IMG/VR virus record: IMGVR_UViG_3300020470_000727
Location: 1-22,850 of that record
Length of the DNA: 22,850 nt
Origin: a virus
Reading direction: 5' to 3' (one strand)
In this document: piece after piece, positions 11,271 through 19,410 of the stretch
Position numbering within the stretch: position 1 is the first letter of the stretch
Layout: each line of letters starts with the position of its first letter
Program-made: the position numbers and the translations under genes
The notes under the pieces: generated by a model
Seen by the model: the letters and a program-made list of their open reading frames with translations, nothing else
Databases searched by the model: none
Told to the model about the DNA's origin: nothing

Positions 11271-11768
11271 TTATATATGCGACTTTGTTTTATTCAACCT
11301 GTACATTTCATCACCCCCGAAAACTTTTAGTCCTCCAGGGGTGACTGCTTTGTCTTTGCTTTCGTAAACGTCTCTAGTTATTCTAACTTCAGACGTAACA
11401 ATACCACCAGCAATGATACATTCATCACCGATGACTCTGCCATTCCATGCTTGGCCATCCCAAGTGAATATCATATCACATTTGGGATTGCGTGTCCAGT
11501 CTAAATTATAATTTTCTACAACAATCCTATTGGGTGGGTGCTCCACCATCCTGTGATACTTCTCTCGATATGGTTTGTCTGGTCCTTCACTCCTCTTCCA
11601 TTGCTTAGAGTGGTATCCTCCTTCGATTTTCTCCCAAAGGAGGAACACCTGACTAAACTCAGTAGGAAATGATTGGGCTTGCCTTTTGTTATTATAAAAT
11701 CCTAAAAGGTAAGTCTCAAATTCATTCGTCAAAGACTTTACATTCGGGCTCACTTGGATGCATTTCAC
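11271..11768 (-). CDS. cpeT: CpeT/CpcT-type phycobiliprotein bilin lyase, 165 aa
   Basis: T-type lyases attach phycoerythrobilin or phycocyanobilin to beta-subunit cysteines of phycobiliproteins; cyanophage homologues are known to bind bilin. The family pattern is visible: YLLGFYNNKRQAQSFPTEFS (residues 20-39), KPYREKYH (65-72), a Cys-containing strand PKCDMIFTW (95-103), the GDECIIAGG turn (114-122) and the C-terminal LKVFGGDEMYRLNK. The length fits the phage forms. The start is uncertain: GTG at 11766-11768 overlaps cp12 by 47 nt, whereas a TTG at 11730-11732 would overlap by 11 nt and start nearer the domain. It follows cp12 in one short unit downstream of tail hub genes. The 3' end abuts repeat copy A. 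Confidence 0.85.
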   Translation of the reverse strand: MKCIQVSPNVKSLTNEFETYLLGFYNNKRQAQSFPTEFSQVFLLWEKIEGGYHSKQWKRSEGPDKPYREKYHRMVEHPPNRIVVENYNLDWTRNPKCDMIFTWDGQAWNGRVIGDECIIAGGIVTSEVRITRDVYESKDKAVTPGGLKVFGGDEMYRLNKTKSHI

Positions 11769-13397: not shown

Positions 13398-15554
13398 TTA
13401 TTTCCAGATACTGTTGTAGGATTGTAATTGATCGACCAAAGATTCTCTCTTGGTACCACTACCAAGCACCAATGGTTTCTTACTGTTTGCTGCACCAGTA
13501 GCACCTGCAACAGTCTTCTGACTAGCAGCACTTAATGCTGCAACTTTTGCTTCAGCAGCAGCTGCTTGCTCTTGAGCAGCTTGAAGAGCTTGCATTGCTG
13601 CTTCTTGTTTTTCTTTTTTAGACTGTCCTTTAAGACCTCTTACTGCATCAGTTGCCTTAGACATCACACTTGATGCAGTTGAACTAATCTTACTCCATGC
13701 TGCTTGCCCTCCTCTCTTAGCAAGACTAGCACCCTTCCTAATCATACCACCCAAGAACATTGGTTGTGGTACATGCAACTGAGGTTTCTGTTGATAGATA
13801 CCACCCTCAGACATCATGTTAATGACAGGTGACAATGTAGGTTGGAAAAGACCACCCTTATCAAACATCTCACCTTCAAATATTGAATACCCTTCGCCTG
13901 GTTTAATACCTCTAATCTCTAAGTCTTTTTTATGTGCATCTCTCTTCTTCTTAGAAGTTGCTTTCTGTGCATCAGATGCTTTAAGAATAGGGAATAAAAT
14001 GTCATTATCTAGTCCAGTCATCCGATAATATACCTGCATGATATTATATGCTTGTCCAGTAGCTTGCTTCAACGAATCTATAAGTTGCTGCTGATGTTCC
14101 ATCAGGTCAGGGACACCAATTGATCCCATAATTGATTTAAACTTCTTGAAAGATTTTTCCGTATCTATCACACCGTTGACCGTTACAGTCTTCTCTATAA
14201 ATTCTTTCTGACCATAGACTAACTGCTCTGGATTTATTTGTCCTATCTGATATCCTTCCTTACCATAGTGAGACTTATCAAAGTTTTTAATCCTACCAGT
14301 GTTTTGATTCTTCATCTTACCACCAGCATCAAACTCAGGTAAGTAAGTATTGATATTAATTGGACCGCCTTCTGCTCTACCAGGTACTTTGAATCCTGCA
14401 CTAGAAGCTTGCCTCATCCTCCGACCTGTTAGACCAGAGTCTTTCCTTGTAGCAGGAGTATCAAATGGTACTACAAATCCACCACCATGAGATCTCTGTG
14501 CAACATACTCTGTGCCATGACCTATAAATGCTGTGCTCCTACCACCATCAAGTGATACAGGATAACCTGACTGTGGTCCATGTATCCATCCACCTTTAGC
14601 TTTCTTAGGTAGTTTGCGATACTTGTCTTCAAGTTCTTCTAGCCTTGTATTGTCCTTGTCGAATTCGGGATCGCCATGTGTTTTTCCCTCATTTTCAAGA
14701 CTCTCCAGCCTATCTCTAAGATTAGACATTTCAATAGCATCATCTCTTGATACTGGATTTCCATTGATGGTGGTACCACCCCCACCATCATCCTCATCAT
14801 CACCCTTAAGCTTATCATTGAGCATCATACCAGCACCAATGATCAACCCAATGACACCTAACCTCTTGATCATTTTCTTCGAGGTCATCTTCAACCCTTT
14901 AGCAAACACCTTAAGGAGTTTCCTTAAGTCTTTCACTAGCTTCATAGGATTCTTCAGCCATCGTATGGCTATGAAGAGTCCAGCAAAGTTAGTAATCATC
15001 TGGAAGAGACCTACTATCTTCTCCCACCAGTTACCTTCAATTAATTTTCGTAATCCTTCTAGTCCTCCTATTACTCTATCAGTAAGGAACTTTGCTACAA
15101 ACCCAAAGAATTTTACCATCCCCTCTACGATATTCTTTAACGCTTCTGTATTCTTGGGGTTGGCCAACCATTTCATCACTGGACCAGCGATGGCAAGTAC
15201 TATAATATCTTTGAATACACCTAGGAGATTCTCCAACCAACCAGCTTGAGGTTTCTCTGGTGCTTCGTCACCTCCTTCTCCTTCAGGGACAGGAGTAGCA
15301 CCCTCTGACTGATTGAACGTTGGTTTGAACTCTACCTTCGCACCTTTACTTAACTTCTTAAATGCATCGAGCTGAATATTCTTAGTATCCATCAAGATTT
15401 TGGCAATCGAATTCCATGTCTTGTTTAAATCATTCGTTGCCTTAATATTAATATTGATTGACTTTATTGTTGCTGCCTGATCACCTTGCTCCTTAGCAGG
15501 TCCAACTACCTTCGCAAAGTTTATTTTTCCACCTTTCTTAACTGCTGATGCCAT
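13398..15554 (-). CDS. Tape-measure/hub-like structural protein, 718 aa (paralogue of next gene)
   Basis: Residues 106-200 (WLENLLGVFKDIIVLAIAGP, ANPKNTEALKNIVEGMVKFF) align with the corresponding block of the neighbouring 696-aa protein, so the two look paralogous. Several hydrophobic helices follow, up to about residue 245. Around residues 325-370 a segment GGWIHGPQSGYPVSLDGGRS then FIGHGTEYVAQRSHGGGFVV resembles the motif common near tape-measure C-termini. The last 110 residues are Ala/Gln/Lys-rich coiled coil. It may be the tape measure, a hub plug or a second tape-measure-related protein. ATG overlaps the preceding stop by 1 nt (TAATG). In related genomes such proteins are usually annotated only as virion structural. 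Confidence 0.65.
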   Translation of the reverse strand: MASAVKKGGKINFAKVVGPAKEQGDQAATIKSININIKATNDLNKTWNSIAKILMDTKNIQLDAFKKLSKGAKVEFKPTFNQSEGATPVPEGEGGDEAPEKPQAGWLENLLGVFKDIIVLAIAGPVMKWLANPKNTEALKNIVEGMVKFFGFVAKFLTDRVIGGLEGLRKLIEGNWWEKIVGLFQMITNFAGLFIAIRWLKNPMKLVKDLRKLLKVFAKGLKMTSKKMIKRLGVIGLIIGAGMMLNDKLKGDDEDDGGGGTTINGNPVSRDDAIEMSNLRDRLESLENEGKTHGDPEFDKDNTRLEELEDKYRKLPKKAKGGWIHGPQSGYPVSLDGGRSTAFIGHGTEYVAQRSHGGGFVVPFDTPATRKDSGLTGRRMRQASSAGFKVPGRAEGGPININTYLPEFDAGGKMKNQNTGRIKNFDKSHYGKEGYQIGQINPEQLVYGQKEFIEKTVTVNGVIDTEKSFKKFKSIMGSIGVPDLMEHQQQLIDSLKQATGQAYNIMQVYYRMTGLDNDILFPILKASDAQKATSKKKRDAHKKDLEIRGIKPGEGYSIFEGEMFDKGGLFQPTLSPVINMMSEGGIYQQKPQLHVPQPMFLGGMIRKGASLAKRGGQAAWSKISSTASSVMSKATDAVRGLKGQSKKEKQEAAMQALQAAQEQAAAAEAKVAALSAASQKTVAGATGAANSKKPLVLGSGTKRESLVDQLQSYNSIWK

Positions 15555-17644
15555 TAGACTTTATCAAGTAGGGGTGAGCGTTGACCTTGTATTACTTCCT
15601 GACTACTATTTATTGGCATGGGCAAGAAGATTGGAATTGTATTAGTAATAGGGAAAGCAAATGGAGTTGCATCCTCATCCTCTTCCAATGCATTTGATTC
15701 TGACATAGAAGTTAACGCACCACCTGATGCCATCTCAGGTATCCTAGTGAATGGTCCACCTTGTGAAAACTCATCACCACCACCTTCAATAAATTTATCA
15801 CCAGAGATAACATTATCTTCATTGACCTCCCAACCTGAAGTATCAGTACCTCCACCAGGAGTTGTAGTATCTTCCTCTCCACCTTCAACTTTATCCTTCT
15901 TATTACCTCCTCCAAACCAACCCATGATCTGACTTAAGTCAGGTAGTTTCTTAAAGAGAGCATCCATCTTACCTTTGAGACCACCCAGACCTAGTTTCTC
16001 AATCATAGCATCTTCACCTGCCTTGAGGTCTGCTTCTGGGAAGAAGTCAGGCAGCAAGTCTCTTGCAAACATGTAGGCATCCAAACCAAGAGATATTTTA
16101 GGACCAGGGAGAAAACCTGGACCTATAGGAGGTGGTAAACCAGACAAGTCTAAGATACCAGACGCACCTTCAATAAGACCACCAATAGTATCCCCCTGAG
16201 CAAATCTATCATAGGCAAACACCATGTTAACAATACCACCAATGATATCAATTGCTTTCGGTCCTATCTCTTTCAACACTGGACCTAAACTAAAGATACC
16301 TTTAGCACCTTTCTTCTTCAGGAGTTTCATTATCCATTCAAAGCCAGGTATCTTTCTCAATAATTTGGTGATTGTATCACCGACACCAGTCATCCTCTTC
16401 ATCAAAGGATCTAAATGCTTCTTAGCAGGCTTTAGAACCTTCTCAATCATTATCTCTTTGGCTCTGCTACCAGCCTTCTTAATCCAGTTACCCAGATCAC
16501 CCCACTTAGAATTCAATCTCTTCTGTAAGTTTTTACCATACTTCTGTGCCTCAGCCCACTTACTTGTTACTTGCTTTCCAGCCCAATCAATACCAGACTG
16601 AATATTCTTACCAATACCACTAAAGAAATTACCTATCCCCTTCTTTGCATCCCCAACATCTACCTTGGGCAGGAGGTTTTTTAATTTCTTTGGATCTAAA
16701 AACTTACCTACATTATCAATTGCACCAGTAACTTGCTTACCAATCTTAGTATCTGCTAACTTTTTAGTTACCTTACCTGCACCCTCCATTATATCATCTA
16801 TCTTGGATGCTTTCTTAGCATCCTTCGCCTTATCTACTCCCTTAATTGCATCCTTAGTCTTATCTACTGCTTGAACACCCTTTTGTCCTACCTTTCCAGC
16901 CTTCTTCCTCCACCAGTTTTGGAATTTTTTTGCCAGCTCAATAACTTTCTCAACCAAACCAGCTAGGTTTTGACACAGTGCGATGATACCCATCATCAAA
17001 CCGAAAGGATTCATTAGAGCTGCTAGCCCTAGGAATCCCATCAGCATCTGGCCAAATCCTTTTAACCTCTCCCAAAATGGTGCGTTAGAATCAAATACCT
17101 TACCCATACCGCCGAGAAGATTCTCGACAGATCCCTTAACCCAACCAGCAAAGAACTTAAAGACCTTACCTGTAGTTTCAATTGCCCACTGTACTGTCTT
17201 AGCATTCTTAGGGTCTTTCATGAAGTCAAAGACCGCCTTAGTAATCACTAAGGTGATCAAATCTTTCATAAAGTTTGCTAATGGGCCAAAGACTTTCTCC
17301 ATCCAAGTCATTGCTCCCTTGGATGTCTTCGTATCTTTTAAGTCTTTATTCTTACCTTCGTTAATGTTACCTTTCGGTGGACCCTCAGGTAATATCTTTC
17401 CTTCCTGTAAATTCTCAGCAGCTTTATCTTTCTCTAAGCGTGCTAACTTCTTCTTTTTCTTCTCTTGATACTTTTGAAATGATACCGTTGCACCAGCAAT
17501 GGATTTCATTTCCAGTATAATCTTACCAATACTATTACTAATTACTCCTGACTGATTAATAGCAAGAGTTTTCTGGCTATGAGCAGCTAGAACCCCTTTT
17601 CCTTTAAGAGGTTTGGCAGGTTTATATAGTACTAACTTAGCCAT
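15554..17644 (-). CDS. Tape measure protein candidate, 696 aa
   Basis: A tape measure sets tail length and is normally encoded directly after the tail assembly chaperones. Here the gene follows the gp26/frameshift ORF with an 8-nt overlap. Features: charged coiled-coil N-terminus (Lys/Glu run at residues 58-78), hydrophobic helices between about 114 and 235 (WMEKVFGPLANFMKDLITLV, MGFLGLAALMNPFGLMMGII), a long Lys-rich helical middle, another hydrophobic region (GPKAIDIIGGIVNMVFAY), and a Gly-rich C-terminus with QGGPFTRIPEMASGGAL. T4 gp29 is 590 aa. Sequence similarity to gp29 cannot be shown here, so the name rests on architecture and position. Confidence 0.6.
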   Translation of the reverse strand: MAKLVLYKPAKPLKGKGVLAAHSQKTLAINQSGVISNSIGKIILEMKSIAGATVSFQKYQEKKKKKLARLEKDKAAENLQEGKILPEGPPKGNINEGKNKDLKDTKTSKGAMTWMEKVFGPLANFMKDLITLVITKAVFDFMKDPKNAKTVQWAIETTGKVFKFFAGWVKGSVENLLGGMGKVFDSNAPFWERLKGFGQMLMGFLGLAALMNPFGLMMGIIALCQNLAGLVEKVIELAKKFQNWWRKKAGKVGQKGVQAVDKTKDAIKGVDKAKDAKKASKIDDIMEGAGKVTKKLADTKIGKQVTGAIDNVGKFLDPKKLKNLLPKVDVGDAKKGIGNFFSGIGKNIQSGIDWAGKQVTSKWAEAQKYGKNLQKRLNSKWGDLGNWIKKAGSRAKEIMIEKVLKPAKKHLDPLMKRMTGVGDTITKLLRKIPGFEWIMKLLKKKGAKGIFSLGPVLKEIGPKAIDIIGGIVNMVFAYDRFAQGDTIGGLIEGASGILDLSGLPPPIGPGFLPGPKISLGLDAYMFARDLLPDFFPEADLKAGEDAMIEKLGLGGLKGKMDALFKKLPDLSQIMGWFGGGNKKDKVEGGEEDTTTPGGGTDTSGWEVNEDNVISGDKFIEGGGDEFSQGGPFTRIPEMASGGALTSMSESNALEEDEDATPFAFPITNTIPIFLPMPINSSQEVIQGQRSPLLDKV

Positions 17645-17831
17645 TAGATGCTTGTTTGTCCTTGTAGCGTCTTTCCTCTTCCTTGAGGAATTTTATGAGT
17701 AGATGAACATAGATTTCCTTTTCAAATGGTATAAGGTTGTCTATGTATTCCATGTTCCACTTATGATGATGCATCAAAGCAAAGTTTGATTCATAATATG
17801 TCTTTAGGTCCCCGTGTAGGAGGACTACTCG
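17637..17831 (-). CDS. -1 frame extension of gp26 (tail assembly chaperone-like), 64 codons
   Basis: The frame is open from the slippery site to TAA at 17637-17639. It encodes RVVLLHGDLKTYYESNFALM, then HHHKWNMEYIDNLIPFEKEI and a Lys/Glu helix. The pattern L..HHHKW..E....IPFE.EIY..LL is typical of the small C-terminal domain of gpG-T-type tail assembly chaperones that bind tail components. An internal ATG (17772-17774) would give a 45-aa protein but has no Shine-Dalgarno and cuts off the conserved YYESNFAL part. Frameshift expression as a 299-aa gp26 fusion is therefore the better reading. It precedes the tape measure candidate, as expected for this gene type. Confidence 0.75.
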   Translation of the reverse strand, partial: RVVLLHGDLKTYYESNFALMHHHKWNMEYIDNLIPFEKEIYVHLLIKFLKEEERRYKDKQASNG

Positions 17832-17837
17832 AAAAAA
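17808..17837 (-). promoter_or_regulatory. Programmed -1 ribosomal frameshift signal at the end of gp26
   Basis: On the minus strand the heptamer T TTT TTC (17837-17831) is in the correct X XXY YYZ phase relative to gp26. A 5-nt spacer GAGTA follows, then a stem GTCCTC/GGGGAC (17825-17820 and 17813-17808; one G-U pair) with a 6-nt loop CTACAC. The zero-frame stop TAG overlaps the spacer and stem start. Slippery site, spacer length and stem-loop meet the canonical requirements. Confidence 0.8.
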
Positions 17838-18535
17838 GAGCTTAGTCCCTCCAATGTGACCTCATTCTCTACACCAGTGTTAGGATTTAATACCTTAATA
17901 GTATGAGATAACTTAGGCATAGTCTCAAAGAATGTTTGTATCTTTTTAAACTGTCCTGAGTTCATATCATCAAAGAATGCTAGGAGTTCTTTCTTAGAAG
18001 AGTCTTTGCAATCATATACTTGTTCGCTATCAGCAATAGTTTCAACACATGCTGCTGCCATTTCAAAAACTTGATCCACACCAGGATCATCACCAACAAG
18101 ATTAAGTTTAACAAACATATCAAAGGATGGATAACCCATAGTGATAATGATATCATCACTGAGTTTTATCTCTCTTTTATGATCGGGACTCTTTGTTATT
18201 TCAATATCATCTAGTGGTATTGATACAGGAACCTGTGTCTCATTATCATCTGGACAAGTAATGTTTACATCAACATTCTCACCCACAGATCTCGTCCTGA
18301 TTTTAAGGAAGAGATATTCAATATCAAAGGTTGCAAGATCTTTTAGTGACCTGAGATTAGTACATGAGGTAAGGATATTCTTGACTGCATCAATCATATC
18401 TTTCTGCTCACCACTTTCCATTGCTAGGTAGAGAAGTTTCTCTTCCTTGACCAGGAAAGGTCTATACTTTACATTCTTTCCACTGCTAGGCAGCTTGAGA
18501 TTATACTCAGGGACGTTTAACTTAGGTAATGCCAT
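17825..18535 (-). CDS. 26: gp26-like baseplate hub protein / tail assembly chaperone, 236 aa
   Basis: The T4 gp26 family pattern is clear: LPSSGKNVKYRPFLVKEEKL (residues 16-35), LYLAMESGEQ, then LATFDIEYLFLKIRTRSVGE and a C-rich strand ITCPDDNE. T4 gp26 (208 aa) is needed for baseplate hub assembly. I chose the ATG at 18533-18535 (MALPKLNVPEYN) rather than a GTG three codons earlier, because a late promoter CTAAATAA ends 19 nt upstream of it. The last codons TCT TTT TTC GAG TAG contain the slippery heptamer described separately, so a fraction of ribosomes should make a longer product. It is first in a unit with the tape-measure-like, hub, cp12 and cpeT genes. Confidence 0.85.
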   Translation of the reverse strand: MALPKLNVPEYNLKLPSSGKNVKYRPFLVKEEKLLYLAMESGEQKDMIDAVKNILTSCTNLRSLKDLATFDIEYLFLKIRTRSVGENVDVNITCPDDNETQVPVSIPLDDIEITKSPDHKREIKLSDDIIITMGYPSFDMFVKLNLVGDDPGVDQVFEMAAACVETIADSEQVYDCKDSSKKELLAFFDDMNSGQFKKIQTFFETMPKLSHTIKVLNPNTGVENEVTLEGLSSFFE

Positions 18536-18630: not shown

Positions 18631-19410
18631 TTAGGGTAGGCCGAATTGATTAACAGGATCCATACTAGATGCTGAGTCAAACTTATCATCAACATAAAAT
18701 CTATACCTCTCGTAATAAAATCCAACTGAGAGTGTGATAGTTTGTGCTGTCTCGTTAGTTAATGATATCGATCCAATGTTGAATGGGAATACATTTCTCA
18801 TGTCATATATTCCTACCAACTGGTCTGCCTTATAAGAAGGTACTTGCTCTAACTTTATACCTAATGATTTAATATGCTCAAGGAATTTCTGGGTGTAAGG
18901 TACCTTCAATCCTCCACCTCTTTCCCACTTAAAAACTTTTAGACTAGGGCAAACATAACTGTCATAGTAATCTGTCATCTGATTAGCATCACTAGACATC
19001 AACTGGATCCATCTCTCAAAGATGTTACGAGTTGCATGTGACCTAGGTAGTAAGAAATCTATTTGAATTTGACTGAATGTAGATGATGTAGCATAGTTAT
19101 ATGCTGATCCAATATTAGTAATGGCAGAGGTTGTTACCTGTCTACTAGGTAAGTTAACAGTTGATGCATAGAAATTTAAGAGGTTAGCATTGTCACCAAT
19201 CTCTAAAGTAAAATTCTTTCCACCATAATATGATACTCTATCTGATGTTGACCCACCACCTCCACCAAAGATAACTGGTGTTGAAAATTGTACAGAGTAT
19301 CTATTGCTATACGAAGGAGCATTCTTATTATTCTTTGACCATCCTATCAGTTGGTTCAAAGATGCTCTCGGTGTATATCGAGACCTCTCTTTAAAGTTTT
19401 GTACTACCAT
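18631..19410 (-). CDS. Baseplate tail-tube initiator (gp54-like candidate), 259 aa
   Basis: The protein has a tail-tube-like layout: strand-rich core with NFTLEIGDNANLLNFYASTV, LPSRQV, then IQIDFLLPRSHATRNIFERW, a YYDSYVCPSLKVFKW strand, and a C-terminal beta hairpin (TITLSVGFYYERYRFY). T4 gp54 starts tail tube polymerisation on the baseplate and shares this fold with the tube protein gp19. Length (259 aa) lies between gp19 (163) and gp54 (320). The position beside gp4 and close to gp48 favours gp54 over the main tube protein, which in these phages is usually near the sheath gene. ATG overlaps the gp4 stop by 1 nt (TAATG). Confidence 0.6.
   Translation of the reverse strand: MVVQNFKERSRYTPRASLNQLIGWSKNNKNAPSYSNRYSVQFSTPVIFGGGGGSTSDRVSYYGGKNFTLEIGDNANLLNFYASTVNLPSRQVTTSAITNIGSAYNYATSSTFSQIQIDFLLPRSHATRNIFERWIQLMSSDANQMTDYYDSYVCPSLKVFKWERGGGLKVPYTQKFLEHIKSLGIKLEQVPSYKADQLVGIYDMRNVFPFNIGSISLTNETAQTITLSVGFYYERYRFYVDDKFDSASSMDPVNQFGLP

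Follow-up and report, generated by a model that had tools for sequence, protein, structure and literature searches.

The window, the whole 22,850-nucleotide stretch of viral DNA analysed here, most probably encodes the tail assembly chaperone of a T4-like cyanophage, which would be made both as gp26 and as a minor −1 gp26–gp51 fusion (probability about 0.93). The comparative evidence that the longer form would arise by programmed −1 ribosomal frameshifting is very strong. All parts of the gp26/extension locus lie on the minus strand, an orientation left out of the first-pass annotation, as do the two flanking genes:

17825–18535, minus strand: gp26, the short isoform (TAC-N); open reading frame with translation, matching PF12322 (T4_baseplate, E = 2e-76) and phrog_150 (E = 1e-88).
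17831–17837, minus strand: slippery heptamer T TTT TTC in −1 phase; T TTT TTN in 134 of the 135 non-redundant relatives having the site.
17637–17831, minus strand: −1 frame extension of 64 codons plus TAA, corresponding to the gp51 C-terminal domain (TAC-C); matches phrog_634 (E = 4e-28).
17847–17852, minus strand: Shine–Dalgarno (SD)-like element GGAGGG, 9 nt upstream of the heptamer, a candidate stimulator; anti-SD pairing across relatives exceeds synonymous nulls.
17808–17825, minus strand: 6-bp stem with a 6-nt loop (GUCCUC/CUACAC/GGGGAC) after a 5-nt spacer, a weak candidate stimulator; present, with marginal energy.
18631–19410, minus strand: tail tube protein gene, just upstream; matches phrog_45 (tail tube, E = 1.7e-47).
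15554–17644, minus strand: next gene, 696 aa, a tape-measure candidate by position and hydrophobic segments; matches phrog_790 (labelled endolysin, E = 1e-73).

The gp26 gene begins with ATG at 18535 and runs for 236 codons to a TAG stop at 17827–17825, its 3′ end reading TCT TTT TTC GAG TAG. After a −1 slip at the heptamer, translation would continue as RVVLLHGDLKTYYESNFALMHHHKWNMEYIDNLIPFEKEIYVHLLIKFLKEEERRYKDKQASNG up to a TAA at 17639–17637, yielding a predicted fusion of 299 aa that spans 17637–18535. A first-pass annotation of this DNA had proposed precisely this arrangement, and its heptamer in canonical −1 phase (17837–17831), its 64 open codons and its 299-aa product all proved exact. 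The 5-nt spacer that it described (GAGTA, 17830–17826) and the 6-bp stem with 6-nt loop are also present, one of the six pairs being U-G. A slippery heptamer lying in phase no more than 60 nt from the stop occurs in gp26 alone among the 26 candidate genes in the window.

In the mechanism that we propose, most ribosomes would terminate at the TAG and release gp26 (TAC-N, 236 aa), while a minority would undergo −1 tandem slippage on U UUU UUC and produce the 299-aa gp26–gp51 fusion (TAC-NC). Slippage is probably aided by pairing of GGAGGG, 9 nt upstream, with 16S rRNA and, in many relatives, probably also by a stem just downstream of the site. On the model of lambda gpG/gpGT, the two isoforms would cover the tape measure protein and deliver tail tube subunits to it. 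We infer the slippage itself, its efficiency, the stimulator roles and the chaperone function; the last is supported by the position of the gene between those for the tail tube and the candidate tape measure.

The slippery site is nearly invariant. Loci collected from IMG/VR and phage records were thinned below 90% identity to 138, of which 135 have the site: TTTTTTC in 94, TTTTTTT in 34, TTTTTTA and TTTTTTG in three each, and GTTTTTT in one. In 132 of the 135, the site and the stop are a single sense codon apart. The arrangement is common to KVP40-like, Aeromonas Ceceduovirus, Stenotrophomonas, Sinorhizobium and Rhizobium phages. Two Ackermannviridae-type loci (L090, 3501–4304; L092, 3342–4082) retain the −1 frame with its MPWH motif, and at these two the T TTT TTN heptamer was not found, ATT TTC or CTT TTC standing there instead. 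A further apparent exception, L164, was dismissed, as it carries a 1-nt shift upstream that is probably a contig error and its junction is normal. The alignment of the junction in other phages, which had been suggested as a check, recovered both the heptamer and the −1 reading frame; close relatives have neither lost the heptamer nor shifted the −1 frame, and a conserved start with its own ribosome binding site was not found for the extension.

The second frame, which overlaps gp26 in −1, codes for protein, and its starts are not conserved. Across relatives, dN/dS of the extension is 0.059 in the −1 frame and above 1 in the other two frames, and the −1 frame is closed upstream of the gp26 stop at a median of 34 nt. 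Together with the invariance of the heptamer and the homology to the gp51 C-terminus described below, this strong purifying selection and the lack of a conserved start support the original proposal that a programmed −1 frameshift fuses a chaperone C-terminal extension to gp26.

Could the heptamer be fortuitous, gp26 ending in Phe-Phe for protein reasons and the open −1 frame being incidental? The FF pair is indeed conserved in the protein and TTT is the common Phe codon (0.74). Against this, T precedes the TTT codon in 134 of the 135 relatives, where 79 would be expected from codon usage, and still does so in 17 of 17 lineages after thinning to below 60% identity. The residue ahead of the TTT codon varies (S, N, T, A, D) while its third base stays T, and the TTT codon itself is present in all 135. 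An A-site codon of TTA or TTG replaces Phe by Leu in the protein and leaves the heptamer intact. On this third-base T excess, the dN/dS of the −1 frame and the singularity of gp26 among the 26 window genes, we rejected a chance origin, barring misalignment of the sequences compared; it is the least probable of the alternatives considered. Slightly less remote, and still most improbable, is transcriptional rather than ribosomal slippage on the T run as the source of a fused mRNA. Such slippage is known in bacteria on runs of nine A or T (PMC5009743), and the window has a run of six T, one clade a run of seven. Among relatives, however, the run is usually only six, it is kept in a constant codon phase that RNA polymerase would not need, and the SD-like pairing and downstream stem sit at ribosomal distances.

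The remaining alternative makes gp51 a small gene in its own right, with translation beginning at an independent start or resuming by reinitiation past the gp26 stop; it is somewhat better placed than these two and nonetheless very unlikely. It has the support of database records that annotate it so, of an ATG two to three codons into the extension in about a third of relatives, where independent initiation is thus possible, and of an ATG overlapping the gp26 stop in some phages. Start positions are not conserved, however, and 39 of the 135 relatives lack any start within the first 14 extension codons. In the window the first ATG, GTG or TTG comes only at codon 18–19 (the TTG ATG of FALMHHH), so that the first-pass description of an extension with no usable start was right in effect: initiation there would forfeit the conserved N-terminal part. 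Conservation sets in immediately at the slip (FFR/FFQ). A separate gene would also leave the invariance of the heptamer unexplained, and in T4-type phages gp51 is a single protein with both domains. An independent gp51 start was therefore rejected as the general mechanism for want of a conserved start, leaving −1 ribosomal frameshifting as the preferred reading.

The extension was identified as the C-terminal domain of gp51. Its phrog_634 match carries the label ‘baseplate hub assembly catalyst’ (gp51), and it also matches positions 231–281 of phrog_150. In HHalign comparisons, the cyanophage extension family aligns to residues 210–248 of T4-type gp51 (E = 5e-7), and the same family gave no match to T4-type gp26. 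The extension is homologous to the C-terminus of T4 gp51. In T6, gp26 (208 aa) and gp51 (249 aa) are encoded divergently, and both match PF12322 (E = 3e-63 and 3e-55, respectively) and phrog_150, gp51 over nearly its whole length whereas gp26 matches only to position 235. T4-type gp26 and gp51 are paralogues, and HHalign aligns them with 98.9% probability over 191 columns. PF12322 occurs twice in T6 and in a Proteus Tevenvirinae phage, and once in the 14 other phage records tested. On these copy numbers and the paralogy, the Tevenvirinae carry separate short and long genes, and the others have one gene with a −1 extension. On all of these profile matches (PF12322, phrog_150, phrog_634), both the short form and the extension are placed in the T4 gp26/gp51 family. 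Public cyanophage records (L001, L002, L003, L094) either annotate the extension as gp51, a gene of its own starting at an internal ATG, or omit it altogether (S-CAM1, S-CAM7).

AlphaFold models of the window gp26 and of a T4-type gp51 were of good quality, with pLDDT scores of 87 and 84, respectively. In a fold search of the PDB with gp26, the HK97 chaperone 2OB9 had the highest probability among the matches listed (0.51), but with a non-significant E-value of 1.7; the gp51 model gave no match, and sequence and fold searches of the PDB returned no significant relative. Among predicted viral structures, the matches to gp26 included other T4-like baseplate hub proteins, a gp51, and proteins without a name from other myoviruses and from a single siphovirus record.

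Across relatives, the sequences on both sides of the heptamer also carry signals beyond synonymous-codon nulls: upstream, over the full set, an SD-like element, and downstream, in numerous lineages, an RNA stem. Synonymous-codon conservation at the LEG codons, taken alone, looked unremarkable, and the SD-like signal emerged only with a pairing-energy test. Pairing to the 16S anti-SD peaks 7–9 nt before the heptamer, with a mean best energy of −6.4 kcal/mol observed and −5.0 kcal/mol in synonymous randomisations, and GAG is used in 61 of 98 Glu codons at the element compared with 27% elsewhere. Downstream, the 45 nt after the site fold with an energy of −9.5 kcal/mol versus −4.8 kcal/mol in synonymous nulls, dinucleotide z-scores reaching about −2 only for windows that start 0–11 nt downstream. 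Both effects survive thinning to 17 lineages (p about 1e-3).

The register of the stem differs between clades, and the strong stems are found in clades other than that of the window. The S-PM2-type sequences, 39 in all, share a 13-pair stem in which pairing reaches 92.7%, compared with 42–55% in slid controls. Three of its pairs have changed on both sides, a covariation that is modest because most pairs vary little. Taken alone, the window's stem is matched in stability by 5.5% of synonymous randomisations and its SD-like element is matched in strength by 5.8%. Stems in the window's clade are weak and differ between close relatives, one of which (L015) loses a pair. Within that clade, the window's own stem is therefore unsupported as a conserved stimulator: the stem-loop cited in the first-pass annotation is present but is not kept in the closest relatives. 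That annotation had described the heptamer, spacer and stem of the frameshift signal correctly, and had missed the upstream SD-like element and the gp51 identity of the extension.

These comparisons raise the possibility, to which we give even odds, that the site carries a dnaX-like three-part signal composed of an SD-like element, U UUU UUN and a downstream stem. The position and sequence of the stem would depend on the clade while its presence would be selected, such that the ratio of short to long form would be tuned by a rapidly rebuilt RNA structure. The Tevenvirinae, having two divergent copies (26 and 51), would be free of such a constraint.

The gene order is tail tube, gp26, extension and tape-measure candidate. 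The earlier suggestion that the next gene encodes the tape measure is plausible. In S-CAM7, Vibrio D491s and phiM19, tape-measure PHROGs are matched by the gene at this position. The window's 15554–17644 gene has no direct tape-measure match among the PHROGs, matching only phrog_790 (labelled endolysin) and its relatives. At 17637–17644 the stop of the extension overlaps the ATG of this gene (ATGGCTAA), an overlap through which synthesis of the long form could be coupled with that of the tape-measure candidate. The two large downstream genes, 13398–15554 and 15554–17644, share an N-terminal region with about 30% identity over 197 residues. Their PHROGs (790, 1200) are labelled endolysin, a label that looks doubtful because the proteins are hydrophobic and lie in a tail operon. 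Within the tail gene region there is also a CpeT-like antenna (phycobilisome) gene at 11271–11768, which supports a cyanophage origin.

Put together, the cyanophage ‘baseplate hub’ gp26 and ‘hub assembly catalyst’ gp51 would be the short and long forms of one chaperone, here seen in a large comparative set, and the gene model would then be wrong or missing in many genome records. The family offers a natural comparison of how a two-isoform ratio may be set, by recoding in cyanophages, KVP40-like and Sinorhizobium phages or by two gene copies in the Tevenvirinae. It also points to the next gene as the cyanophage tape measure, where annotation is poor or misleading.

Several known systems bear comparison with this locus. 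As in lambda gpG/gpGT, a short form would be accompanied by a minor −1 fusion, encoded here between the tail tube gene and the candidate tape measure gene. The slippery site differs, that of lambda being G GGA AAG, and our searches gave no significant sequence or fold match. For T4-like phages, the 2022 abstract of Vladimirov, Gautam and Davidson reportedly describes frameshifting as conserved in several groups. Like the E. coli dnaX −1 frameshift, the gp26 locus has a slippery heptamer, with an SD-like element upstream and a stem-loop downstream as candidate stimulators; in dnaX, however, the frameshift product is the shorter one and here it would be the longer, and the proteins are unrelated. 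The chaperone of Vandenendeviridae and Andersonviridae, also myoviruses, has a −1 shift at a poly-T site close to the TAC-N end, there with a GTTTTT motif and in other phage families (PMC12846349). Closest are the T4-like gp26/gp51 chaperones, which, as far as that work is represented in the sources citing it, belong to the same protein family (Vladimirov, Gautam and Davidson, Virology 2022, doi 10.1016/j.virol.2021.11.003). It is cited for T4-like phages with separate short and long chaperone copies by PRFect (PMC10885494) and for poly-T −1 signals in T4-like TAC-N genes by PMC12846349. On these accounts gp26 is already published as a tail assembly chaperone; the core reading is thus known, and the quantified signal and the clade-dependent stem may be new.
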